The position numbers and the translations under genes were made by a program. Below are positions 2,967 through 33,427 of a stretch of DNA of 33,427 bases, in pieces. The notes under the pieces are model-generated. The model had not been told where the DNA came from. It saw only the letters and a list, made by a program, of their open reading frames with translations, and did not search any database. The DNA comes from Nitrospinota bacterium. GTDB lineage: Bacteria; Nitrospinota; Nitrospinia; JACRGO01. Numbering within the stretch: the first letter of the stretch is position 1; each line of letters starts with the position of its first letter. The stretch lies in contig JACRGO010000136.1 of assembly GCA_016212295.1 (NCBI GenBank), positions 1 through 33,427 of the forward strand, in the 5' to 3' direction.

Positions 2967-3024
2967 CGCTGTTCTGAAAAAATCAAGGAAAGTTTGACTG
3001 GCCATTAATGGCCATGGACCTAAG

Positions 3025-3131
3025 TTATTAACCGTCTCAAAATAGTATTGATATAACCCACCCCGGCGCTCCGCGCCACCCCTCCAGGGAGGGGAATTTT
3101 TATGTGTGTTCTATTTTAAGACGGTTAATAA
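3025..3131. repeat. 107-bp MITE-like element with 21-bp terminal inverted repeats
   Basis: The 21-bp ends at 3025-3045 and 3111-3131 are inverted copies with one mismatch (TTATTAACCGTCTCAAAATA and its partner). Between them lies a GC-rich palindromic core at about 3060-3102, CCCCGGCGC...GCGCCACCCC followed by CCTCCAGGGAGGGG. The core resembles the arms of the 13003-13311 and 15289-15574 elements. No coding capacity; probably a non-autonomous mobile or structural repeat. Confidence 0.75.
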
Positions 3132-3507
3132 GCTGAAATTGGTTATTAATCAATAAGATTTTTTCTTTGTGCCTTTGTGTCTTCGCGTGAGGCTATCTCT
3201 TAACTGGTTCGCGCATCCCACAGGTCTTTATTATATAGCGGGAGTGTCCAAATTGGAACAGGCTGGAGGGATCAGGAATATTTTAAATTTACTTGGAACA
3301 CGAATGTCGCGAACGGGACTAATTGAAAAATTGGACAAGACGGCGGGATAACGCAAATTCACGGGAGGATCGTTTGAAGTGAACGTTAGCTGCGCTTTGG
3401 CGTATGAAAGTAATGGAGCACGAGAAACATAGCGGTATCGGTAAGCGAGTCGATGCGAAGAAGGATGGTTCCTTGCGGAAAATGTAAATTTCTGAACGTA
3501 ATAATAT
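3132..3507. other. Gap with no recognised gene
   Basis: A short open frame exists here (3169-3351) but has no ribosome binding site and no recognisable motif, and its start overlaps a dispersed string (TTTGTGCCTTTGTGTCTTCG) like those at 6074 and 23867. I see no gene. Confidence 0.55.
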
Positions 3508-3600
3508 AATACCCGGCCTTGACATTACACTCCATTGGAATTATTAATAGTAGAAGATCACGTTACCGGCTTTATTACACTTTCCGGGAAGCCGGGTATT
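3508..3600. repeat. 10-bp inverted repeat framing a putative promoter
   Basis: AATACCCGGC (3508-3517) and GCCGGGTATT (3591-3600) are perfect reverse complements. They frame the promoter and leader of the small gene at 3628. ATTACAC occurs in direct orientation inside (about 3524 and 3574). It could be an operator or a transcript-end stem; which is not decided by sequence. Confidence 0.5.
3519..3547 (+). promoter_or_regulatory. Putative sigma-70 promoter for the 3628 gene
   Basis: TTGACA at 3519-3524, a 17-bp spacer, then TATTAA at 3542-3547. The -35 is a consensus match and the -10 is close. The start codon lies about 80 bases downstream. Confidence 0.5.
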
Positions 3601-3627
3601 AAAAAAATATAGCAGAGGAGTTACTCC

Positions 3628-3912
3628 ATGGCACTAAAGAGCGCGTGGGAAATTTCCCAGGAAAAAGCGGCGGCGATCGACGGCCGCAAGGAGGATGAAA
3701 TAGTCCTCACCGATGGGCAAAAAATTAAAATCAGCGAGGTCCGCAAGGAATACGAGGCGAAGATCGCGGAAAGGGAGGTCATGCTCCGGCAGAGGCTTAG
3801 GATGGCGACGCCGGAAGAGGGCCGCCTATTGCAGGAGGAGTTTCAAAGGGAAAAAAAGGCTTTAACCGGGGAGATGGAGAATAAAATCGAGAAAATAAGA
3901 AAGGGCGGCTGA
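3628..3912 (+). CDS. Small charged coiled-coil protein, hypothetical
   Basis: A 94-residue protein starting at ATG 3628 with GAGGAG (3614-3619) upstream. The sequence is rich in Lys, Glu and Arg. From about residue 30 to the end it is almost certainly helical (KEYEAKIAEREVMLRQRL, then EFQREKKALTGEMENKIEKI), suggesting a coiled coil. There is no signal peptide or membrane segment, so it is probably cytoplasmic. I do not recognise the family. It is a stand-alone gene with its own plausible promoter, flanked by repeats. Its base composition matches the neighbouring real genes, which with the ribosome binding site supports it being expressed. Confidence 0.65.
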   Translation: MALKSAWEISQEKAAAIDGRKEDEIVLTDGQKIKISEVRKEYEAKIAEREVMLRQRLRMATPEEGRLLQEEFQREKKALTGEMENKIEKIRKGG

Positions 3913-3975
3913 GGTTTGAATTTTTATATTCATGGCGCGGCTTCGCCGCAGCCAAAATTCGAATACCGAGTATCG

Positions 3976-4100
3976 AAATTCGAAACAAATCCGAATAACC
4001 AAACTCCAATATCCCAAAACACGCACGTGGCCTAGGTTTTGAAATTTGAATCCTTGAATTTTGATATTGTTTCGGATTTCGTTATTCGGATTTCGAATTT
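3976..4100. repeat. Inverted repeat between convergent genes
   Basis: The arms at 3976-3999 and 4081-4100 (GTTATTCGGATTTCGAATTT on the right) are complementary apart from a 4-base gap. It lies between convergent genes, so it may serve as a transcript end. The same AT-rich family reappears at 7233-7275. Confidence 0.65.
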
Positions 4101-4117
4101 ATTTTTCCGTCAGCGGT

Positions 4118-4750
4118 TCAAATCCCAATAAACATGATCATGCCTCCAGTGACGGCGATGACGAGACCGGCGGCGGAGTGGCTGTATGCCTCCAGTTTTT
4201 TAAACGGCATGAGCGCGGCGGCGCTGTAGCCTATCAGCGCCTGGCCGACCATCATGGCCAGGGTGACAAGCCCGAAGATGACGCACACCAAAGCCACGGC
4301 CAGCCAGCCGTGGGCAGCGGCCAGAAACATCAAGGGAATCAGCGGCTCGCACGGCCCCAAAACGAATATGGCCATCAACGCCCACAATGTAACGGAACGT
4401 TTAGGGTCAACTTCCCCGTGATGGTGGTGTATATGCTTTAGTCCCCACACGGCGTAGGCCAAGCCGGACCCGATGAGGAGCAATCCCGCCACATGCCCCC
4501 TTTGCGACTCCATTCCTTCAAGATTAGCGAGGCTGAATCCGAGGACCAGGCCCACGGTCCCGATGAGCATGGAAGAACCCACATGCCCAAGGCCGCAGAC
4601 AATGGTCATCCACGCCAGCTTGAATTTCGGCCATTTTTGGGCGTGTCCGATGCCGACAAACGGGACCCAGTGGTCCGGCGCAAGGGAATGCAGCACCCCG
4701 ATGGAGACCGTGGAGGCCATTAAAATCCACAGAGAGTTTTGATTTTTCAT
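4118..4750 (-). CDS. NicO/UreH-like membrane transporter
   Basis: A 210-residue integral membrane protein with about six hydrophobic segments. The first helix carries HSLAPDHW (about residues 21-28), the His/Asp signature of the NicO/RcnA and UreH-like families, which move nickel or cobalt. A histidine-rich loop, KHIHHHHGEVDPKR, lies near residues 105-118, and a second conserved stretch, LGPCEPLIPLMFLA, follows. By family knowledge this could be a Ni/Co permease or exporter or a related cytochrome-assembly-like protein; the His loop favours a metal role. It starts at ATG 4750 and lies downstream of the HD-GYP gene on the same strand after a 66-bp repeat-containing gap. The metal and direction of transport cannot be read from sequence. 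Confidence 0.75.
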   Translation of the reverse strand: MKNQNSLWILMASTVSIGVLHSLAPDHWVPFVGIGHAQKWPKFKLAWMTIVCGLGHVGSSMLIGTVGLVLGFSLANLEGMESQRGHVAGLLLIGSGLAYAVWGLKHIHHHHGEVDPKRSVTLWALMAIFVLGPCEPLIPLMFLAAAHGWLAVALVCVIFGLVTLAMMVGQALIGYSAAALMPFKKLEAYSHSAAGLVIAVTGGMIMFIGI

Positions 4751-4760
4751 GCGAAAGTCC

Positions 4761-4800
4761 AGTTCAAAGTGACTAAAGTTTAGAGTGAGCTAAAGTTTAG
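4761..4800. repeat. Dispersed AGTTCAAAGTGACTAAAG repeat, copy 1
   Basis: A short AT-rich unit (GTTCAAAGTGACTAAAGTTT, then GAGTGAGCTAAAG). Related copies lie at 10341-10380, 13320-13345 and 20957-20990, each in a gap between genes. Confidence 0.6.
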
Positions 4801-4816
4801 GAAGTTATTTTTTTTA

Positions 4817-5899
4817 CTACCCCTCGCGATACTTTTTCTGGATAGCCAATACCTCGTCAAAATTCTTAACGAACAGGTCCACCAGCCTGGATTCGAAATG
4901 CCTGCCCGACCCTTCCTTCAGGATTTCCAGGGCCTCCTCATTGGAGAAGGCTTCCTTATAAGGACGCCTGCTGGTAAGGGCGTCAAACACGTCCGCCACG
5001 GCGCATATCCTTCCTTCCAGGGGAATTTCCTCTCTCTTGAGGCCCTTGGGATATCCGCTGCCGTCCCATTTTTCGTGGTGGGACAGGGCTATTATCTCGC
5101 CGGTGCGGAGAAGCTCCGAGGAAGAGCCTCCAAGGATGCGGGCGCCGATGGCCGCATGCTGCATCATGATCTCCCATTCCGGCGCGGTCAATTTATCGGG
5201 TTTGAGAAGAATGCGGTCGGGTATTCCTATCTTGCCCACGTCGTGCATGGGACTCGCGTGCCTTAATGTTTCCACCTCGCCGGGGGGGAGGTGGAGGGTC
5301 TCGGCCAGGAGAACGCAATAACCGCTGATCCGCTGAATATGTGATGAGGTGTCCTCGTCCTTGAATTCCGCGGCCAGGGCAAGGCGGCGGATGGTGTCCA
5401 GATAAGCGCTTTGCGTCTTTCTCTGGGCCGAGGCCATGGCTTCCAGGCTTTGGCGGAGGGCGGACGTCCTCTCCTGCACCTGCTCCTCCAGTTCCGACTT
5501 GTGCTTCTTCAAGGCGTCCTGGGCCTCTTTCATCTTCAAAAGAGACTTTGTGCGGACCTGGAGTTCTATCATATCGATGGGCTTGGAGATGAAATCGTTG
5601 ACCCCGGCCTCCACGGAGCGGAGCCGGTTTTCCTTGCTCGCCATGGAGGTGACCATGATGATGGGGATATCGCAAGAATCCGGGTCCTCGCGAACGCGCC
5701 TGGCCACCTCGAACCCGTCCATTCCAGGCATCATGAGGTCCAGATAGATCAAGTCGATCCCAAGTTTCAGCTTGGCCAATGCCTCGAAACCGTCGCCAGC
5801 CAATTCAAGCTGGTATCCCTGGTTCCCAAGGAAGGACGACAGGATTTCCCTGTTGGCGTCCTCGTCATCAACGATTAAAATTCGTTTAGCGCTTTTCAT
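4817..5899 (-). CDS. Response regulator with HD-GYP c-di-GMP phosphodiesterase domain
   Basis: A 360-residue protein. Residues 1-125 form a receiver domain: acidic pair in ILIVDDEDANRE, phospho-Asp in LIYLDLMMPGMDGF, conserved Lys in FISKPID. A helical coiled-coil linker (about 130-165) follows, then an HD-GYP domain to residue 355 with the metal-binding HDVGKIGIPD, the HHEKWDGSGYP signature, and AVADVFDALTSRRPYK. RpfG-type proteins of this layout hydrolyse cyclic di-GMP in the cytoplasm, controlled by phosphorylation of the receiver. All catalytic residues are present. The cognate kinase is not adjacent. Upstream is a repeat-rich gap of 253 bp shared with the divergent protease gene. Confidence 0.93.
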   Translation of the reverse strand: MKSAKRILIVDDEDANREILSSFLGNQGYQLELAGDGFEALAKLKLGIDLIYLDLMMPGMDGFEVARRVREDPDSCDIPIIMVTSMASKENRLRSVEAGVNDFISKPIDMIELQVRTKSLLKMKEAQDALKKHKSELEEQVQERTSALRQSLEAMASAQRKTQSAYLDTIRRLALAAEFKDEDTSSHIQRISGYCVLLAETLHLPPGEVETLRHASPMHDVGKIGIPDRILLKPDKLTAPEWEIMMQHAAIGARILGGSSSELLRTGEIIALSHHEKWDGSGYPKGLKREEIPLEGRICAVADVFDALTSRRPYKEAFSNEEALEILKEGSGRHFESRLVDLFVKNFDEVLAIQKKYREG

Positions 5900-6039
5900 G
5901 GAAATTTTTTGCAGTGAAAAAGATGGGAATCTTATTATTAAACCAGGCTCTATGATAACATAAAGTTAAAATCAAAGGCGCGTTGTTTGCCACGGAAATT
6001 CATGGCGCGGCTTCCCCGGAACCAAAGGAACCAAAATTA

Positions 6040-6100
6040 ACCGCAAAGTCACAAAGAGCACAAAATTTTTTTCTTTGCGGCCTTTGTGTCTTTGTGGTGA
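6040..6100. repeat. CCGCAAAGTCACAAAG / TTTGTGTCTTTGTGG inverted repeat
   Basis: The arms at about 6040-6064 and 6074-6100 are near reverse complements (ACCGCAAAGTCACAAAG and CTTTGTGTCTTTGTGGTGA). It is the same family as 23737-23892 and the single-arm copies near 3165 and 11912. It sits in the divergent gap between the HD-GYP and PrsW genes. Confidence 0.75.
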
Positions 6101-6152
6101 AGATGTTCTTGCCATTTTGGCGATAATTCAATCAATAGGCCGCTAATAAACA

Positions 6153-7202
6153 ATGCTGAAACTATTCTGCCAGATTTGCGGCGAGCCGCTCAAGGTGGAC
6201 GAAAGCAGGCTTCCGGATTCCGACCGGATCAAAATACGATGTCCAGGCTGCGGGGGGACCTTTCTTTTTCACCTGTCGCCGGGAACGGAGGGAAAGGCAG
6301 GGGAGCCGGACTCCGTGGTGGGAGTGGTCAGGGACGAACTCTTTTCCCTGGACATTCCCGATTTTTGGAAGCTCCTTCAAAGCCAGGTCTTCTGGCTGAT
6401 CCTGATACTGGCCGGCATGCCAATGATCCTTAACATGCTGAACGTGGAAATAGTGCGCGGCATGACAATCTACTTTTCCGTGATCTGGTTCTTCGTCTTC
6501 ATAAAACTTTTTCAATACGAGGGTTCCAACTTCAAGCTCCACCTTGGGGTGTATTTTTTCTCCCTTATATCCCTTTCCCCCGCGTTCCTGTTGATCCATT
6601 CCCCGACCTCTCCCTTCTATTCCTTTATTTCTTCCGAAGGGGCGGTCTTGCGGTTCCTCGGCTTTTTCGCCGGCGTGGGGATAACGGAGGAGCTGACCAA
6701 GGCCGTTCCCATATTCCTTCTTGCCGCGTTTACCAGGCGAAAAAAAGAGCGGCTTTCCGGCATGGATTATCTCCTTTGCGGAATCATGTCCGGCCTGGCC
6801 TTCGCCGGAGTGGAAAATTTCGGGTACATACGCATGGCGGTCATCAGGGACGTATTTGGGGGATCAGTGGGGGACGGCGCGATCACCTCCCTTGCGCGCA
6901 GCACCCTGACTCCGTTCATACACTCGTGCCTTTCCGGGATCTTCGCCTATTTCATAGGACTGCCGACTTTTTATCCCTTGAAAAGCCCCTGGCCCTTTTT
7001 TATTTCCGGACTCCTCGTTTCCGCGTTTCTCCATGCCTTGTACGATTTCGCCGTCACCTTTCCCGTGTTCAATCAGATCCTGGCCTTCCTGGCCCTGGCC
7101 CTGATGTACATTGGACTTTTGATTTGCTGGTTGAATCTCAAGACCAAGTTCAGAAGGGCGCGAAGGGGGGAAATGGACGGTTATATAAAGGACATAATTT
7201 AG
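6153..7202 (+). CDS. PrsW-family intramembrane protease with N-terminal zinc ribbon
   Basis: A 349-residue protein. Residues 1-45 form an MJ0042-type zinc ribbon: CQIC at about 6-9 and CPGC at about 33-36. The rest is an integral membrane domain with about eight hydrophobic segments. It carries the PrsW motifs: GITEELTKAVP (paired Glu and Lys), GLAFAGVENFGYI, FIHSCLSGIF, and LHALYDFAVTF. These His and Glu residues match the proposed metal site of the PrsW/CAAX-protease relatives, which cut membrane-anchored anti-sigma factors or prenylated-type substrates. The zinc ribbon faces the cytoplasm by inference. The start has only weak Shine-Dalgarno support. No anti-sigma factor lies nearby, so the substrate is unknown. 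Confidence 0.82.
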   Translation: MLKLFCQICGEPLKVDESRLPDSDRIKIRCPGCGGTFLFHLSPGTEGKAGEPDSVVGVVRDELFSLDIPDFWKLLQSQVFWLILILAGMPMILNMLNVEIVRGMTIYFSVIWFFVFIKLFQYEGSNFKLHLGVYFFSLISLSPAFLLIHSPTSPFYSFISSEGAVLRFLGFFAGVGITEELTKAVPIFLLAAFTRRKKERLSGMDYLLCGIMSGLAFAGVENFGYIRMAVIRDVFGGSVGDGAITSLARSTLTPFIHSCLSGIFAYFIGLPTFYPLKSPWPFFISGLLVSAFLHALYDFAVTFPVFNQILAFLALALMYIGLLICWLNLKTKFRRARRGEMDGYIKDII

Positions 7203-7203
7203 T

Positions 7204-7229
7204 GCCTGAACGAAAACCCCCGTTCAGGC
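7204..7229. terminator. 9-bp stem hairpin after the PrsW gene
   Basis: GCCTGAACG (7204-7212) pairs perfectly with CGTTCAGGC (7221-7229) across an 8-base loop, two bases after the stop codon. The T-run usual for an intrinsic terminator is missing, so it may be a terminator or an mRNA-stabilising hairpin. Confidence 0.45.
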
Positions 7230-7286
7230 AAAATTCGAATATCGAATATCGAAATACGAAACAAATTCGAATGTCATAAGGCAAAA

Positions 7287-7424
7287 TCACCTGAACCAAA
7301 ACATTGGCAATATATTGAAGGCCGTTTCCACCCGATATCCCATAGCGTCCAAATGCTCCCTTAGCGCATAGCAAACGCTTTTGGGGTCATCCACCACCAG
7401 AATGTTTTCTTTTGTTTTTTCCAT
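7287..7424 (-). pseudogene. Receiver-domain fragment (CheY-like), truncated
   Basis: On the minus strand an ATG at 7424 opens 45 codons: MEKTKENILVVDDPKSV, then CYALREHLDAMGYRVETAF, and then a stop after NILPMFWFR. The first 37 residues are the start of a response-regulator receiver domain, with the acidic pair VVDD, helix 1 and strand 2. The fold stops before the phospho-Asp, so it cannot work. It lies downstream of the broken cheA and is the last remnant of the signalling cluster. The end coincides with the ATTCGAATATCG repeat at 7233-7275. Confidence 0.75.
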
Positions 7425-7439
7425 TGGCTGAATTTAATG

Positions 7440-7506
7440 GTCATTTGTCATTGGTCAATAGTCATTGATAAACAGGAAGACGGCCTAATGGCCAATGGCT
7501 AATGAC
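7440..7506. repeat. GTCATTGGTCAATAGTCATT palindromic repeat, copy 1
   Basis: GTCATTTGTCATTGGTCAAT is followed by its partial inverse, GGCCAATGGCTAATGAC. A second copy is at 16481-16532. It ends next to CTTCGCCCGAAGGGCGATAA, a small palindrome with relatives near 28263 and 31330. Confidence 0.65.
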
Positions 7507-7574
7507 TTCGCCCGAAGGGCGATAATTTAAATCTTAAATTTCAAATCTTAAATTTGAAATCCAAATGTCCCTTC

Positions 7575-8824
7575 TTACCGTTTCTCCTTCAGCAGCCCTT
7601 CAATCAGACGCTCCAACTTGACCACTTGCCCGTTGAAATTATAAAGCCCGTCCAGACTCTTATATCTGATTTCCCTTTCCTTCAAATCGATCACGGCTTC
7701 CACATTTTCAGTGGGGAAGGTGAAGAGTTCCCCGTCCACCCTGACCACCACCGCGTCCTTGGTCACAAGAGTAAGGGCCTGCGGGAGTTTCAGGGTCAGC
7801 CGCGTGCCCGCGCCGAAGGCGGACTCCAGGTCCAGGCGCCCATCGCATTTTTTCAGGTTATGCATGACCACGTCCATCTCCACCCCTCTGCCGGATATAT
7901 CCGTCACCTTCTCGGCCGTGGAAAATCCGGGCCGAAAGATGAGCTTTTGAATCTCTCCGTCCGCCATGGCCTCCGCTTCCGTTTCGGAAAGGATGCCTTT
8001 TTTCATGGCTGTTCTTTTTATTTTCCCGGTATCTATTCCCCTCCCGTCATCCTCTATGTATTATCCGCGCCCATTCCTTGTCAGCCGAAGCGGAGATGGA
8101 TATCCTGCCCTCCGCAGGTTTTCCAGCCTTGCTTCGTTCCCCGTCCGACGCCTCTATTCCATGGTCGATGGAATTTCTAAGTATGGGGACCAGGGGATCC
8201 TCGATCAACTCCACGAGGTTTTTATCCAGCAAGGTGTCTTCTCCCTTGATCTCCAGCCTTATCTGCTTTCCAGCCACCCCGGACACCTCCCTCACCAGGC
8301 GGGGAAATTTCTGAAAGATTTGCCTCAGCACACTCAAAAATAGTCCGCGCCTGCGGGTTGAAATCCCTGCCCTGGAAGACGCAGTCGAAGGAGACCCGCC
8401 TGGTTTTTTTCTTAACGGATATTTCCTTCAGGATGGAATCCATATTCCCGGCGATGGACCTCATAAGGGGGTGCCTGGAAATATCGATATCCGCCTCTTT
8501 CATGCTCTTGGCCAATTGCAGGAATTGATCGACAAGATTTTCTCCTTGCAATAAAAGGTCGCCCTCATCATCCACGCCTTTTCTCTTTTCCTTTATGGCG
8601 GAAAGGATGTTTTCCAATTTATGGGTCAGTTGCGCCACCGCGGCCAGCCCCAAAAAACCGGAACTCCCCTTGATGCTGTGGAAGACGCGGAACACGGAGT
8701 TCACAAGCTCCTCGTTGCCGGGGTCCTCTTCGAGCCTGACGAGGTCCCCCTCGGCGCGCCTTAGATTTTCCCTGCTTTCGTCAAGGAACTCTATCATGAC
8801 CTCCAGCGCCTGCTTTTCTTTCAT
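7575..8824 (-). pseudogene. cheA: cheA-like chemotaxis histidine kinase, two frameshifts
   Basis: Three minus-strand frames follow one another as parts of one CheA. 8824 to about 8340 encodes an Hpt (P1) domain with the phospho-His in FHSIKGSSGFLG. About 8340 to 8047 encodes the start of the ATPase domain (FPRLVREVSG, DPLVPILRNSIDHGIE). About 8046 to 7575 encodes the rest (EDDGRGID, then FRPGFSTAEKVTDISGRG) and a short CheW-like end. Removing one T from the TTTTT run near 8340 and one base near 8057 restores the frame. The usual P3 dimerisation helices seem absent, and the CheW-like domain is only about 65 residues. It is either a pseudogene or carries sequencing errors; the state of the neighbouring genes favours decay. 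Confidence 0.85.
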
Positions 8825-22606: not shown

Positions 22607-22830
22607 TTTTAAACGTTCACGATAGGCGACATGGAAGCGGCTTCATGCTCAATTGCAGGGGAAACCACATCCCCCTTTGTCCCCCTTTGGTAAGGGGGAA
22701 TATTGGAAACGCCCTTAAAAAGGTCTCCATTTTTAATTCCTCCTTGGCAAGGGGGATTAAGGGGGATGTAAAAAATAGCTGATGAGGCTTTTTCTGGTTT
22801 TCATGACAACCTTGTGAACGGTTGCTAAAA
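22607..22830. repeat. 224-bp MITE-like element, copy 1
   Basis: Imperfect terminal inverted repeats: TTTTAAACGTTCAC at 22607-22620 and GTGAACGGTTGCTAAAA at 22814-22830. Inside, CATCCCCCTTTGTCCCCCTT and AAGGGGGATTAAGGGGGATG form a large inverted repeat. Both the core and the flank ATGAGGCTTTTTCTGG recur in the 24773-24963 copy. Confidence 0.75.
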
Positions 22831-24772: not shown

Positions 24773-24963
24773 AGGCAACTCAATTCTTAACATTATTCAT
24801 CGGCAGAGGGAGCTACATCCCCCTTAATCCCCCTTGTTGAGGGGGAATCCGGTAGCGCCCCTAAAAGAGGCTCTGTTTTAATTCCCCCTTAACAAGGGGG
24901 ATGTAAAAAGTAACGAATGAGGCTTTCCCCGATTTTTCATGCAAACCCCGTGAACAGTTGCCA
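24773..24963. repeat. MITE-like element, copy 2
   Basis: GGCAACTCAATTC at the left and GTGAACAGTTGCC (24950-24962) at the right are imperfect inverted ends. Inside are CATCCCCCTTAATCCCCCTT and CCCCCTTAACAAGGGGGATG. The flank GAATGAGGCTTTCCCC matches copy 1. It ends a few bases before the ribosome binding site of the 24977 gene. Confidence 0.7.
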
Positions 24964-24976
24964 TTTGGAGAAAACC

Positions 24977-26173
24977 ATGAAGCGAATAGTATCCACAGTA
25001 TGCCTGCTTGCCCTCTGCTCATTGGCGGCAACGGCCTTCGGACAGGACGAGGGAATGCCGTCGAGTGCGGGCGGATTTTTTGGCGGCAGTTTCCTGACCA
25101 ATCCGAACCTTTCCTTGATTCTCAACACGTTCGCCTACACATCAAACCTAAAGAATGATGAACTTGGAACTCGTGCCATCCCCGGCTTCACCACCCAAGG
25201 GACCGAGCGCCAAAAGGGATTCAATATCGACGCGGCGGAGTTGGTCATCTTTGCCCCGGTGGACCCCTACTTTAACCTTTATACCAACATCCCCATTACC
25301 GATAACGCCATAAGCCTGGAAGAAGCTTTTGTGGTTACCACCTCCCTCCCTGAAGGATTCCAACTGAAAGGGGGAAAATTTAAAAGCAATTTCAGCCGGT
25401 TGGACGCCCAGCATCCCCACGCCTGGGATTTTGCAGATATCGCCCTGCCGTACCGGGCTTTCCTGGGCGGCGAGGGCCTTGGCGGCGAAAAGGGCATACA
25501 GGCCACCTGGCTCCCGGCCTTTCCCATCTACGCCCAATTCGGAGCGGAGGCCCTGCAAGGGGAAAACGACTTGATGTTCGGCGGAAATGCGCGTTCCGGC
25601 CCGCGCGCCTTCTCCTTTTTCGCCAAAAGCTCGGTTGAAACGGCTGACGACTCGACACTTTATTTCGGTCCTTCAGTATTGTTCGGCAGGACCAGGAACG
25701 CCAATGTCACTGATGGCGCCGAGTTCAGCGGCAACAGCGCGCTCTACGTGATGGAAGCGGTCTGGAAATGGAAACCGTCAAAGCAGCAAGGCTTTATACT
25801 CCAAGGCGAATACCTGTACCTGGCCCAGAACGGGAACCTGACGGATAATATTAACGCAAATGTTGATTCGTTGAAACGGCGGCAGGACGGGTTCTATGCC
25901 CAGGGAATTTACCAGTCGGGCCGCTGGCGGTTCGGCGCCCGTTACGACATGCTGGAAGCGTTCGCCGATTCCTTCAGGCGCTCCGGCGCGCAACAGGATT
26001 CAGGCAATGCTCCCTGGCGGACTACAGGGACCGTGGAATTCAATCCGTCCGAGTTCTCCCGCATCCGGCTCCAGTATTCCAATGACCGGTCAGGACGGGA
26101 TGGAAAGGAAAATAATGAATGGTTCATGCAGTTCATATTCGGCATAGGCGCCCACGCGGCGCACTCGTTTTAG
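24977..26173 (+). CDS. Outer-membrane beta-barrel protein of a metal-uptake locus
   Basis: A 398-residue protein. ATG 24977 has GGAG six bases upstream; the signal peptide is MKRIVSTVCLLALCSLAATA, cut near AFGQ. Repeated amphipathic strands and a C-terminal aromatic stretch (EWFMQFIFGIGAH) indicate an outer-membrane barrel. SLEEAFVVTTSLPEGFQLKG and FSRLDAQHPHAWDFAD match the zinc-regulated TonB-type or porin-like outer-membrane protein family found next to Zn importers. It probably lets metal or metal complexes into the periplasm. It precedes the ZnuA/ZnuB-like genes on the same strand after a 141-bp repeat-containing gap. Confidence 0.7.
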   Translation: MKRIVSTVCLLALCSLAATAFGQDEGMPSSAGGFFGGSFLTNPNLSLILNTFAYTSNLKNDELGTRAIPGFTTQGTERQKGFNIDAAELVIFAPVDPYFNLYTNIPITDNAISLEEAFVVTTSLPEGFQLKGGKFKSNFSRLDAQHPHAWDFADIALPYRAFLGGEGLGGEKGIQATWLPAFPIYAQFGAEALQGENDLMFGGNARSGPRAFSFFAKSSVETADDSTLYFGPSVLFGRTRNANVTDGAEFSGNSALYVMEAVWKWKPSKQQGFILQGEYLYLAQNGNLTDNINANVDSLKRRQDGFYAQGIYQSGRWRFGARYDMLEAFADSFRRSGAQQDSGNAPWRTTGTVEFNPSEFSRIRLQYSNDRSGRDGKENNEWFMQFIFGIGAHAAHSF

Positions 26174-26275: not shown

Positions 26276-26314
26276 TATTTCTTTTACGATTTATTCTTGT
26301 CAGGAGGATTCATA

Positions 26315-27220
26315 ATGCGCAAAATACTTATAGCCATATTTCTTTCGTTGGCATTGGCTTGTCCAGCCTTCGCGGAGCTTAACGTTGCAGCCACTCTCCC
26401 CTGGATAGGCAGTCTGGCGATGGAAATCGGCAAGGACAAGATCACAGTGGCGACCCTTGTGAAGCCGAATCAGGACCCCCATATCATCGAGGCAAGACCG
26501 GGCATGATCCTTGCCGGACGAAAGGCCGGCATAATCATGTACAACGGCCTTGATCTGGAAATAGGTTATCTGCCCCTGATTCTTGAGTCGGCCAGGAACC
26601 CGAAAATCATGCCCGGAGCGCCAGGCAATTTCGACTGCTCCAGGTTCGTAAAGGTCCTTGAAAAAAACACTGCCGTGGATCGAAGCATGGGAGACGTTCA
26701 TCCCCTGGGCAACCCGCACTACCACTTCTCTCCAGCCAACGTTCTCCTTGTCGCGGAGGGAATGTCGAATGCCCTGGCCGCTCTTGACAGGCCCAATGAA
26801 GGCTTCTACATGGAAAATTTAAGGAACTTCACGGAGCGCCTCAAGGAAAGGCAAAAGAAGTGGAGCGCCATATCCCTTAAAGGAAAAAAATTTGTCGCCT
26901 ACCATAAGCTGTTCGAGTATCTTGCCTCCGGGTTCGGGTTTCAGATCACCAATTACGTTGAGCAGAAGCCCGGCATTCCTCCGTCAGCGGCGCACATTGA
27001 GGGCCTTATCGAGGACATGAAGGCCAATAAACCGGACGGCATTCTTACAACGGCCTTTTACGGGAAGAAAGAGGCGGAGTCAATCTCCTCAAAAACCGGG
27101 ATAAAGGTCATTGTACTTCCCGCCGACGTCGGCTCCGAAAAAGGGACCGGCGACTGGTTCGCCTTCATGGACCAGGTTCTCGCTATAGTAAACGCAAGCG
27201 TTGACTATCACCCTCAATAA
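26315..27220 (+). CDS. Metal ABC transporter substrate-binding protein (ZnuA-like)
   Basis: A 301-residue protein. ATG 26315 follows AGGAGG at 26302-26307; the signal peptide is MRKILIAIFLSLALACPAFA. Metal-ligand motifs of cluster A-I binding proteins are present: NQDPHIIEARP, LGNPHYHFSP, FVAYHKLFEYLAS and an Asp in LPADVGSE. Such proteins bind Zn2+ or Mn2+ in the periplasm and hand it to a ZnuB-type permease. GNPHYHFSP with three His favours zinc. The long His-rich loop of classical ZnuA is absent. The permease gene starts 10 bases downstream. Confidence 0.88.
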   Translation: MRKILIAIFLSLALACPAFAELNVAATLPWIGSLAMEIGKDKITVATLVKPNQDPHIIEARPGMILAGRKAGIIMYNGLDLEIGYLPLILESARNPKIMPGAPGNFDCSRFVKVLEKNTAVDRSMGDVHPLGNPHYHFSPANVLLVAEGMSNALAALDRPNEGFYMENLRNFTERLKERQKKWSAISLKGKKFVAYHKLFEYLASGFGFQITNYVEQKPGIPPSAAHIEGLIEDMKANKPDGILTTAFYGKKEAESISSKTGIKVIVLPADVGSEKGTGDWFAFMDQVLAIVNASVDYHPQ

Positions 27221-27230
27221 CGAGGAAATA

Positions 27231-28031
27231 ATGGAAACCATCAATTTCTTGCTGTATCCTTTTCTGGCTTGCCTGCTCCTGATCCTCATTCACACATATT
27301 TCGGGATACACATCCTGGAGCGGGGAATTATCTTTGTTGACCTGGCCCTGGCCCAATTCATCGGCATAGGGATAGCCCTGTCCTTTGTTTTAGGGGAGGA
27401 GCATGGTTTTCTTCTCTCCACTGGCTTCGCCCTTTTCGGCGCCTTCATCCTGTCGTTATCCAAAAAGGCGTCCAGGTATGTGAACATAGAGGCTTTTATC
27501 GGGGTCCTCTACATCTTCTCCTTCTCAGCGAGCATTCTGATTCTGGATAAAAGCCCGCACGGACTGGAAGAGTTCAAGTCCATCATGAACGGCAACATCA
27601 TCTGGGTGACCCCAAAGGACATCCTTTCCACCTTCATGGTCTATGGGGTGGTCGGCGCGTTGCATTTTTTCCTGCGCAAGCAATTTTACGCGCTTACCTT
27701 TGAGGGGAGGGGGAGTTTTTTCATGGAACTTCTCTTCTTTTCCAGCTTTGCCATAGTGCTTGTCAAATCAGTGCATATCGCGGGCATTCTCCAGGTCTTT
27801 TCGTTCCTTGTTATTCCGGCCTTGGCCGGACGCCTCTTCTTCCGGGAGCCGTTCAAGGCCCTCATGGCCGGCTGGCTGGTGGGAGCGCTGGTAAGCATGG
27901 GAGGGATTTTCCTGTCGTTTGAACTGGATATCCCCACCGCGCCGGTCATTGTAGAGGGGCTGTCTCTGTTTTTTTTCGCCCTGCTGGCATTAAAGATTTG
28001 CGGCAAAATGAAAGGAACTGAAAACGTATGA
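27231..28031 (+). CDS. Metal ABC transporter permease (ZnuB-like)
   Basis: A 266-residue ABC-3 family membrane protein. ATG 27231 has GAGG six bases upstream; a longer frame from 27201 overlaps the binding-protein gene and lacks a better site. There are about eight membrane helices. RGIIFVDLALAQFIGIGIAL is the conserved second-helix motif of the family, and ILQVFSFLVIPALAGRLFF the cytoplasmic coupling region. It forms the membrane channel of a zinc or manganese importer. No ATPase subunit (ZnuC) lies before or after it in this window, which is unusual; it may be encoded elsewhere. Confidence 0.88.
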   Translation: METINFLLYPFLACLLLILIHTYFGIHILERGIIFVDLALAQFIGIGIALSFVLGEEHGFLLSTGFALFGAFILSLSKKASRYVNIEAFIGVLYIFSFSASILILDKSPHGLEEFKSIMNGNIIWVTPKDILSTFMVYGVVGALHFFLRKQFYALTFEGRGSFFMELLFFSSFAIVLVKSVHIAGILQVFSFLVIPALAGRLFFREPFKALMAGWLVGALVSMGGIFLSFELDIPTAPVIVEGLSLFFFALLALKICGKMKGTENV

Positions 28032-29861: not shown

Positions 29862-29890
29862 AGATTAAAGTATTACTATTTGTTTGTCAA
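29862..29890 (-). promoter_or_regulatory. Promoter of the riboswitch-cbtB operon
   Basis: TTGACA (29890-29885), a 17-bp spacer and TAATCT (29867-29862) on the minus strand. Transcription would begin close to the first base of the riboswitch. Confidence 0.7.
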
Positions 29891-29985
29891 GTTGCAATCT
29901 TTATGCGGTTATTTTAAAAAAAGGGAAAACCATTCACGACTATATAGGGTTTTTGCCAAAACCGGATATTCCTATTGAAGATGTT

Positions 29986-30294
29986 ATGCTCCAGACAAAA
30001 GATAACATAATCTTAACAATCCAAAGAAATCAAAATCAGATTAGGGGATTCGGAGTTAAAAGACTTGGCCTATTTGGTTCTTTTGTCCGGGAAGAACAAA
30101 ATTCTGAAAGTGATATTGATTTATTAGTTGAATTTGAACCGGGCAAAAAGACTTTTGATAACTTAATGCGCCTTTATTTTGTTTTAAAAGAATTATTTAA
30201 CCAGCCCATTGAATTAGTAACCACTGAATCTCTCAGCCCATATATAAAACCATACATTATAAGTGAGGTTGAATATGCCGATATCACCCCTTGA
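29986..30294 (+). CDS. mntA: MNT-type nucleotidyltransferase antitoxin
   Basis: A 102-residue protein, start ATG 29986 (MLQTKDNIILTIQRNQ) preferred to the unsupported frame from 29884. RLGLFGSFVREEQNSESDID is the minimal nucleotidyltransferase motif (GS..., SDIDLLVEF), with the two catalytic Asp. MntA adenylylates the HEPN toxin beside it and so neutralises it. The toxin gene starts inside the end of this one (20-base overlap). This region is AT-rich compared with its neighbours, suggesting horizontal transfer. Confidence 0.85.
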   Translation: MLQTKDNIILTIQRNQNQIRGFGVKRLGLFGSFVREEQNSESDIDLLVEFEPGKKTFDNLMRLYFVLKELFNQPIELVTTESLSPYIKPYIISEVEYADITP

Positions 30295-30628
30295 ATATTT
30301 ACGGCATATTTTAGATGAAACAAAATATATCATTCCTCATGCTAAAAAGTTGGACAAACATTTATTTAAAAAAGACGAGACATTGAAGAGAGCATTTGTC
30401 CGTTGCCTGGAAATCATTGGAGAGGCTACAAAAAAAGTTCCGTCTGATTTTAAAAGTAAATATCCAAATATTGAATGGAAAGAAATGGCGGGTATGAGAG
30501 ATTTATTGATACATAATTATTTTGGCATAGACTACGACATTGTATGGGATGTTGTTGCTAATAAGATACCTGAACTCCAAGAGAAAATCGAAGAAATTTT
30601 CGGAAATGAATCGAAAGGGGCTAAGTAA
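30275..30628 (+). CDS. hepT: HEPN-domain toxin (HepT)
   Basis: A 117-residue protein from ATG 30275 (MPISPLEYLRHIL). The signature GMRDLLIHNYFGIDYDIVW contains the HEPN ribonuclease motif R-x4-6-H (R...HNY). The overlapping MNT gene and this order define the type VII HEPN-MNT system, in which the MNT protein adenylylates the toxin Tyr. The motif is complete. An alternative start at 30263 adds four residues; the Shine-Dalgarno GAGG at about 30265-30268 fits the internal ATG. Confidence 0.88.
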   Translation: MPISPLEYLRHILDETKYIIPHAKKLDKHLFKKDETLKRAFVRCLEIIGEATKKVPSDFKSKYPNIEWKEMAGMRDLLIHNYFGIDYDIVWDVVANKIPELQEKIEEIFGNESKGAK

Positions 30629-30981: not shown

Positions 30982-31377
30982 TTCCTCGCTGTTTTATTCG
31001 CGGGCAGAAATTCGCGGGATGCGGCGCCGCTCTCGGCGTCTTATCCTGCTTATTTTGCCCATCCCTGTTTTGACAGTATAGGAATTTCCGTTTTTAATCT
31101 TTAAAAAGTCAAATAGATATATGAATCACACACACCTTGATCCCCCCTTGCCAGCAGGGGGGAATTGAGTCATGCCTTGCCCCGGGGGAATTTTTGAGAT
31201 ATCCCCCCAAGGGGAATTTTTGAAATATTCCCCCTTAAAAAGGGGGCCAGGGGGATGTCAATTCTTTTTGGTTGCGGCGGAGTAAGGAACGGTTTCAAAC
31301 TGTTCCCTACTAAGCGTTCTATTTTCAGTCCGCCCGAAGGGCGATAAGTTACTTCATGCCTTTCAAAAAGGAGGCTT
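30982..31377. repeat. Repeat-bearing gap before the efflux gene
   Basis: No gene seen. CCCCCTTGCCAGCAGGGGGG (from about 31144), then GGGGGAATTTTTGAGATATC and GGGGAATTTTTGAAATATTC form tandem and inverted copies of the CCCCCTTAA...GGGGGA family. CGCCCGAAGGGCGATAAGTT near 31331 is another dispersed palindrome. AAGGAGG at 31368 is the ribosome binding site of the next gene. Confidence 0.65.
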
Positions 31378-33427
31378 ATGTTTTCGCAAATAAAAAGATT
31401 GCCCTTGCTTGCCGCTCTCATGCTTTATGCCGTGTCCGCGTCAGCCGAAGATCGTTATACACTCGATGACCTGATAAAGATGGCGGTGGAGAAGAATCCT
31501 TCGGTTGCAATCTTCAGGGCAAATGTCGAGGCCCGAAAGGGAGTGGTTGTCTCTTCAAGGGCCTATCCAAACCCTGAATTGGGTATCGAGGCTGGAAGGG
31601 GCCGCTCCCTTGACGGCCCTGATTCAGGGGGAGAGTATTCGATAAGCATCGGCCAGCCGATTGAGAGGCCGGCAAAAAGGCATTTCCGCGAGAAGGCCGC
31701 CGAGACCGGGGTCCTATCGTCGGAGAAAGAAAAAGAAGGCTATCTGCTGCTGCTCCGCTCTGATGTAAAGAAGGGGTTTTACCGGTTGCTTTATGACAAG
31801 AGGGCTGTGAAGGCCGCCGGGGAGAACATCGGCATCATGGATGGCCTCTTAAAGACCGCCGAGGTCAGGGTAAAGGCCGGAGAAGCGCCTGAGTTCGAGC
31901 TGGTAAAGGCCCGTGTTGAAAAATTGAGGGTTGATAAAGAGTTAAAGCGGGCGGAGAGCAGGGTCATCACCTCTAAAGCCGCTTTAAATGTCCTCTTCGG
32001 CAACACCCTGCCTGAAAACTTCGATATAGAGGGGGACTTTTTCATGCCGGAAAAGAGATTTGATCTTCAATCCCTTCTGGCAAATGCCGTGGAAAAGCAT
32101 CCTCGTATGCTCAAGGCGAGGAGGGAGGCGGAGGCAAAGGGTTACACCCTCAAGATGGAAGAGGCGTCTGTCTTCCCTGGCATCACACTGAAAGGCTTCG
32201 CAGGCAGGGAACTGGGCAGGGAATGGTATGGAATCGGCCAGGTATTGATATACCCTGACCGCTTGCGAAAATACGACCTTTCCCTTAAAGAAGTCTTTGA
32301 TGCTGTGGCAAGCAACAATGCCAACGCAGGCGGGAACATCATAGAACATGCTTCGGAGCAGTATATAGTCCGTGGAGTCGGTCTCATCAAATCCATCCAG
32401 GATATAGGCGACATCGTTGTCAAGGAGCACGGAGGAACTCCCGTCTTTGTCAAGGACGTGGCCGATGTAAAATTTGGTCCTGATACGAGGCAGGGGGCTG
32501 TTGTAAAAGACGGAAAGGGTGAGGCTGTCGCCGGTATCGTGATGATGATTAAGGGAGGGAACAGCAAAGAGATAGTGGCAGGGGTCAAGGCCAGAGTGGA
32601 TGAGATCAACAGAAGCAACATCCTGCCGGAGGGGTTAAAGATAAAACCATTCTATGACAGGACAGACCTTGTGGAGAAGTGCATCGAGACAGTGACAAAG
32701 GCACTGGAGGAAGGGGCCATCCTTGTTGTGGTGATCCTATACCTCTTTCTGCGAAACTTCAGGGGCGCCCTTGTTGTGGCCCTTACGCTTCCGCTGGCGG
32801 TCCTCTCAACATTCATAATAATGTGGAAGACAGGGCTTTCCGCAAACCTCATGTCCCTTGGCGGTCTTGCCATATCCCTTGGAATGGTAGTTGATGCGGC
32901 AATCATCCAGGTGGAAAATGTCCAGAGACATCTTTCGGAAAGGGGGGCAGAAGAACACAGGCTGCCTGTTATTTTAGAGTCCATTCTTGAAGTTAGGAAA
33001 CCCTCCCTTTTCGGGGAGTTGATCATCGCCATAACATTCATCCCTATCATGACCCTTCAGGGTATGGAGGGGAAGATGTTTGCGCCTCTGGCATTTACAG
33101 TGGTCATTGCCCTTTTTTCATCGCTGATACTTTCCATATTTGTGATACCCGTCCTTTGCTCCTTCATCATGAAGGGCGGGGAAGAGAAGGAAAGTCCGAT
33201 AATCCACTGGCTGAAGATACCGTATATCCCGGTGCTGATATGGGCAATAGGGCGACCCAAGGTAATCACGGCCATTGCCGCAGGACTGCTGGCAGGGAGC
33301 CTGGCCCTCTTCCCTTTCCTTGGGACTGAGTTTATACCCACGCTGGATGAAGGTTCCCTGACCACGCAGGTGATCAGGCTTCCGAGCATCAACCTGACAG
33401 AATCTGTGGAGATAGAGAAGAAGATGC
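31378..33427 (+). CDS. TolC-like N-terminus joined in frame to CusA/CzcA RND pump; right end open
   Basis: ATG 31378 follows AAGGAGG and opens an uninterrupted frame of 683 codons to the window edge. Residues 1-22 are a signal peptide (MFSQIKRLPLLAALMLY...SASA). Residues 25-285 are a TolC-family outer-membrane factor (YTLDDLIKMAVEKNP; YPNPELGIEAGRGRS; GYTLKMEEASVFPGITLKG). At about residue 288, GREWYGIGQVLIYPDRLRKY, the frame enters a heavy-metal RND pump: QGAVVKDGKGEAVAGIVMM, NLMSLGGLAISLGMVVDAAI (proton-relay Asp) and TLQGMEGKMFAPLA. The second half of TolC, a membrane-fusion-protein gene and the first 150-200 residues of the pump are missing. A signal-peptide-led chimera could not build a normal tripartite CusCBA or CzcCBA pump. 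I regard it as the product of a deletion of about 2-3 kb. Confidence 0.85.
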   Translation, partial: MFSQIKRLPLLAALMLYAVSASAEDRYTLDDLIKMAVEKNPSVAIFRANVEARKGVVVSSRAYPNPELGIEAGRGRSLDGPDSGGEYSISIGQPIERPAKRHFREKAAETGVLSSEKEKEGYLLLLRSDVKKGFYRLLYDKRAVKAAGENIGIMDGLLKTAEVRVKAGEAPEFELVKARVEKLRVDKELKRAESRVITSKAALNVLFGNTLPENFDIEGDFFMPEKRFDLQSLLANAVEKHPRMLKARREAEAKGYTLKMEEASVFPGITLKGFAGRELGREWYGIGQVLIYPDRLRKYDLSLKEVFDAVASNNANAGGNIIEHASEQYIVRGVGLIKSIQDIGDIVVKEHGGTPVFVKDVADVKFGPDTRQGAVVKDGKGEAVAGIVMMIKGGNSKEIVAGVKARVDEINRSNILPEGLKIKPFYDRTDLVEKCIETVTKALEEGAILVVVILYLFLRNFRGALVVALTLPLAVLSTFIIMWKTGLSANLMSLGGLAISLGMVVDAAIIQVENVQRHLSERGAEEHRLPVILESILEVRKPSLFGELIIAITFIPIMTLQGMEGKMFAPLAFTVVIALFSSLILSIFVIPVLCSFIMKGGEEKESPIIHWLKIPYIPVLIWAIGRPKVITAIAAGLLAGSLALFPFLGTEFIPTLDEGSLTTQVIRLPSINLTESVEIEKKM

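Follow-up and report, generated by a model that had tools for sequence, protein, structure and literature searches.

A TolC-CusA open frame at the end of a Nitrospinota contig: a probable false join within an ordinary efflux operon

An open frame made of two incomplete efflux genes

The window analysed here (33,427 nucleotides) is the complete contig C90 (JACRGO010000136.1) of a draft Nitrospinota genome that totals 3.74 Mb in 237 contigs and is 90.5% complete. At its 3' end lies a chimeric open reading frame (31378-33426, + strand) that starts with ATG, runs for 683 codons and remains open because the contig ends there. The features of this region are as follows.

31362..31377, + strand: ribosome binding site-like stretch (aaaaaggagg-like) preceding the ATG, read directly from the sequence
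31378..32238, + strand: 5' 287 codons of a TolC/CusC-family outer membrane factor gene, with a signal peptide-like start and the first OEP repeat; the second half is absent
32236..32239, + strand: join, without visible long homology; ~2.2 kb absent relative to intact operons
32239..33427, + strand: internal part of a CusA/CzcA heavy-metal RND pump gene, corresponding to about residues 212-607 of the 1052-aa CusA of the relative L010; cut by the contig end

A first-pass annotation had described a TolC-family protein, with its own signal peptide and ribosome binding site, that reads through in frame into a CusA/CzcA pump near residue 288, and the family searches bear this out for both halves. 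In the TolC half, Pfam identified one complete OEP repeat (PF02321, residues 29-208, E 5.4e-25), i.e. a single repeat where TolC/CusC proteins have two per protomer. In the pump half, ACR_tran (PF00873) matched residues 288-682 over profile positions 185-582 (E 6.7e-108), and the NCBIfam CusA/CzcA model TIGR00914 matched residues 289-682 over model positions 196-592. The score of this last match (400 bits) lies below the curated cut-off of 701 for the full-length model of ~1050 positions, the 5' part of the pump being absent at the join and the 3' part lying past the contig end; the pump half nevertheless belongs to the CusA/CzcA subfamily by a wide margin (best NCBIfam model 400 vs 221 bits). 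No membrane fusion protein (MFP) gene lies between the halves, so that TolC, MFP and RND genes do not stand together here as they do in a tripartite efflux operon.

Other features of the contig were noted in passing. Upstream of the TolC start there are two short dispersed repeats, one (31302-31350) with ~19 matches on other contigs of the genome and one (31227-31262) that is also present in a genome of the same genus, G001; stretches 22667-22772 and 24814-24849 occur in G001 too. A nucleotidyltransferase gene (PF01909) overlaps a HepT-like gene (PF01934) at 29884-30628, as is typical of an MntA/HepT toxin-antitoxin pair. At 26297-28031 a gene for ZnuA (PF01297) directly overlaps one for an ABC-3 permease (PF00950), and the listed open reading frames show no ATPase gene next to them. 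Adjoining these zinc-uptake genes, 24917-26173 encodes a protein of 418 aa that has a signal peptide-like stretch but no match in Pfam and is possibly an outer-membrane porin.

Comparison with the intact operon of relatives

The relative L010 (Hainich-H32-bin143) carries a complete CusCBA/CzcCBA-type operon at 2979-8574, in which TolC (2979-4214), MFP (4211-5413) and CusA (5416-8574) are consecutive genes, and L011 has the same three genes in the same arrangement. The remnant on our contig shares the gene families, order and direction of this operon but lacks ~2.2 kb of it. This stretch takes in the 3' portion of TolC, all of the MFP gene and the first ~211 codons of CusA, which encode its N-terminus, TM1 and first porter subdomain. 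On the L010 layout, homology extends as far as TolC residue ~289 of 411 and resumes at CusA residue ~212 of 1052. The missing length is 2209 bp by this layout and 2178 bp by that of L011. The first-pass annotation was therefore right about the loss of the MFP, whereas its figure of about 3 kb was too high.

The join is sharp, because DNA similarity (BLASTN) to the CusA genes of L009, L010 and L011 begins at one position, 32238/32239, in all three cases. A read error just past it was considered, since the frame reads LIYPDRL where the nearest relatives have LIDPDRL, and was rejected because a class relative (L087, in genome G015) also has Y; the residue at this site varies. The other two reading frames stop 2 and 5 codons past the join, and the long frame therefore shows only that the CusA frame is in phase, which is expected in one case out of three. 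The 396 further open codons after the join reflect this phase and not chance openness.

Both halves are plausibly the remains of a single operon that has lost its middle, as judged from their balanced divergence and equal third-position GC content. The TolC half is 54% identical to its counterpart in L010 (over 284 aa) and 41% to that in L011, with 43% between the L010 and L011 proteins; the corresponding values for the CusA half are 81%, 72% and 67%, and its identity to the CusA of L009 is 89%. GC3 is 0.62 in the TolC half and 0.60 in the CusA half. On the same grounds a chimera of two operons or organisms is not favoured.

We searched the same genome for the parts that are missing from the contig, using the MFP and CusA of L010, and found distant paralogues only, with no close match on other contigs. 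The best paralogues reached 42% identity for the MFP, 37% for the CusA N-terminus and 36% for the CusA C-terminus, the last two both on contig C15. Judged by these matches, the other contigs of the assembly contain neither the missing middle nor the remainder of the pump. Collapse between repeats was also considered. No long shared word was seen at the join, and 31300-33427 has no second copy in the assembly except for the dispersed ~50-bp repeat upstream of TolC; a simple repeat collapse at the join is not demonstrated.

The comparison also bears on the membrane topology of the predicted product. In RND pumps a large periplasmic loop lies between TM1 and TM2. The first-pass annotation had proposed that fusion would place the cytoplasm-facing start of the pump in the periplasm, but the cytoplasmic N-terminus and TM1 are themselves absent and what is left of the pump begins within the first periplasmic loop. 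Export by the TolC signal peptide would thus formally leave the pump part in its normal topology. The oddity that had been suggested disappears, but the chimera does not thereby become functional.

Searches for the fusion and a second join in the assembly

A search of other genomes for the same fusion, as the first-pass annotation had proposed, returned none. No TolC-CusA fusion of this type was found among 40 relatives or among 77 genomes of the phylum. The phylum search used as its query the 101 residues around the join, which a shared fusion would match over both sides; instead, the CusA matches, with one exception, begin at or beside the join position. The exception, a weak match in G047, starts ~20 residues before the join and lies in a frame of 1053 codons, which is the usual length for a pump. 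GTDB contigs likewise contained no fusion, the 21 matching loci aligning from residues 267 or 285-295 onward, and the join peptide had no match in a plasmid collection of 72,556 records. Literature searches on CusA-TolC fusions returned reviews of tripartite pumps and papers merely naming the terms, and those on chimeric contigs returned nothing.

Bacteroidota do have pumps in which a CusA/CzcA-like protein and an OEP/TolC domain share one frame, e.g. the 1458-aa protein at L024:5413-9789; a 1460-aa frame in L022 is a further candidate. In L024 the order is opposite to that on our contig, i.e. a complete pump comes first (residues 12-1040, ACR_tran 1-1020) and the OEP region is C-terminal, with a separate MFP gene after the fusion gene. 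Here the order is reversed and both parts are incomplete. Because of this opposite order and their complete pumps, the Bacteroidota fusions are not precedents for the join described here.

A family search of the genome identified six large RND pumps, the one studied here included. A second pump among them, on contig C17 (G000:C17, L075), passes directly from profile position 701 to 970 at ~2490, where the frame also changes; the site lies 2.5 kb from the start of a contig of 12,979 bases. This join is probably of the same kind as that on C90. Internal losses were therefore present in two of the six pumps, the RND pumps being the only genes from which the frequency of such joins in this genome was judged; each loss lies no more than 2.5 kb from an end of its contig, and one is in frame while the other is out of frame. 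Faulty assembly joins would explain two such losses near contig ends more easily than selection for fusion proteins would, although the numbers are small.

Origin of the join

The leading reading, which the first-pass annotation had itself named as what would refute its proposal, is that the two halves were falsely joined: we consider it likely that an assembly or library step created the join inside an ordinary TolC-MFP-CusA operon and that no new protein is encoded. The join may have arisen when the library was prepared or the reads were assembled, in the final, weakly supported kilobases of a contig, the source genome being a fragmented draft, and such a join would be in frame in one case out of three. 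This reading is favoured because the contig ends 1.19 kb after the join, inside the pump, because no relative has the fusion and because of the similar join on C17, which speaks for a shared technical cause. With two joins near contig ends the sample is, however, small, and pure repeat collapse would need a long shared word, of which none is visible; some chimeric read or real molecule should therefore span the join. A real deletion in the sampled cells is a serious alternative to a false join. On this reading the genome, in all or only some members of the population, recently lost ~2.2 kb by a non-homologous (microhomology-type) event, which cost the organism this metal pump and left the two gene remnants fused in frame as a non-functional, pseudogene-like product. 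We regard this as possible but somewhat doubtful. It accords with the sharp join without long homology, the complete operon in relatives, the want of a close match to the missing parts elsewhere in the assembly and the freedom of both halves from stops and frameshifts, which means that a deletion, if real, would be recent. Against it are the position of the join 1.2 kb from a contig end, the comparable break in the C17 pump, likewise close to the end of its contig, which suggests a shared technical cause, and the fact that no other genome shares it.

That the frame encodes an expressed TolC-CusA fusion active in metal efflux, with the TolC signal peptide replacing TM1 of the pump and no adaptor, seems to us extremely improbable. 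The intact start, the ribosome binding site-like stretch, the signal peptide-like N-terminus and the single open frame would all suit an RND pump that carries half of an outer membrane factor and works without a separate adaptor, and the retained CusA begins at a topologically possible point; yet such a pump is scarcely credible with just one of two OEP repeats kept, with CusA deprived of TM1, PN1 and some of its N-terminal periplasmic domain, with the adaptor gone too, and with no counterpart in any other genome examined. Given how TolC trimers and RND pumps operate, neither retained half could work normally. The first-pass proposal of a meaningful chimera is thus not sustained: it is absent from the relatives, the contig stops 1.2 kb further on, C17 carries a comparable out-of-frame join and both halves lack indispensable parts.

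If real and functional, the fusion would call into question whether an adaptor protein and two TolC repeats are required. As it stands, the locus is a caution that in-frame fusions near the ends of draft contigs can mimic new domain architectures, where comparison with relatives reveals an ordinary operon without its middle.
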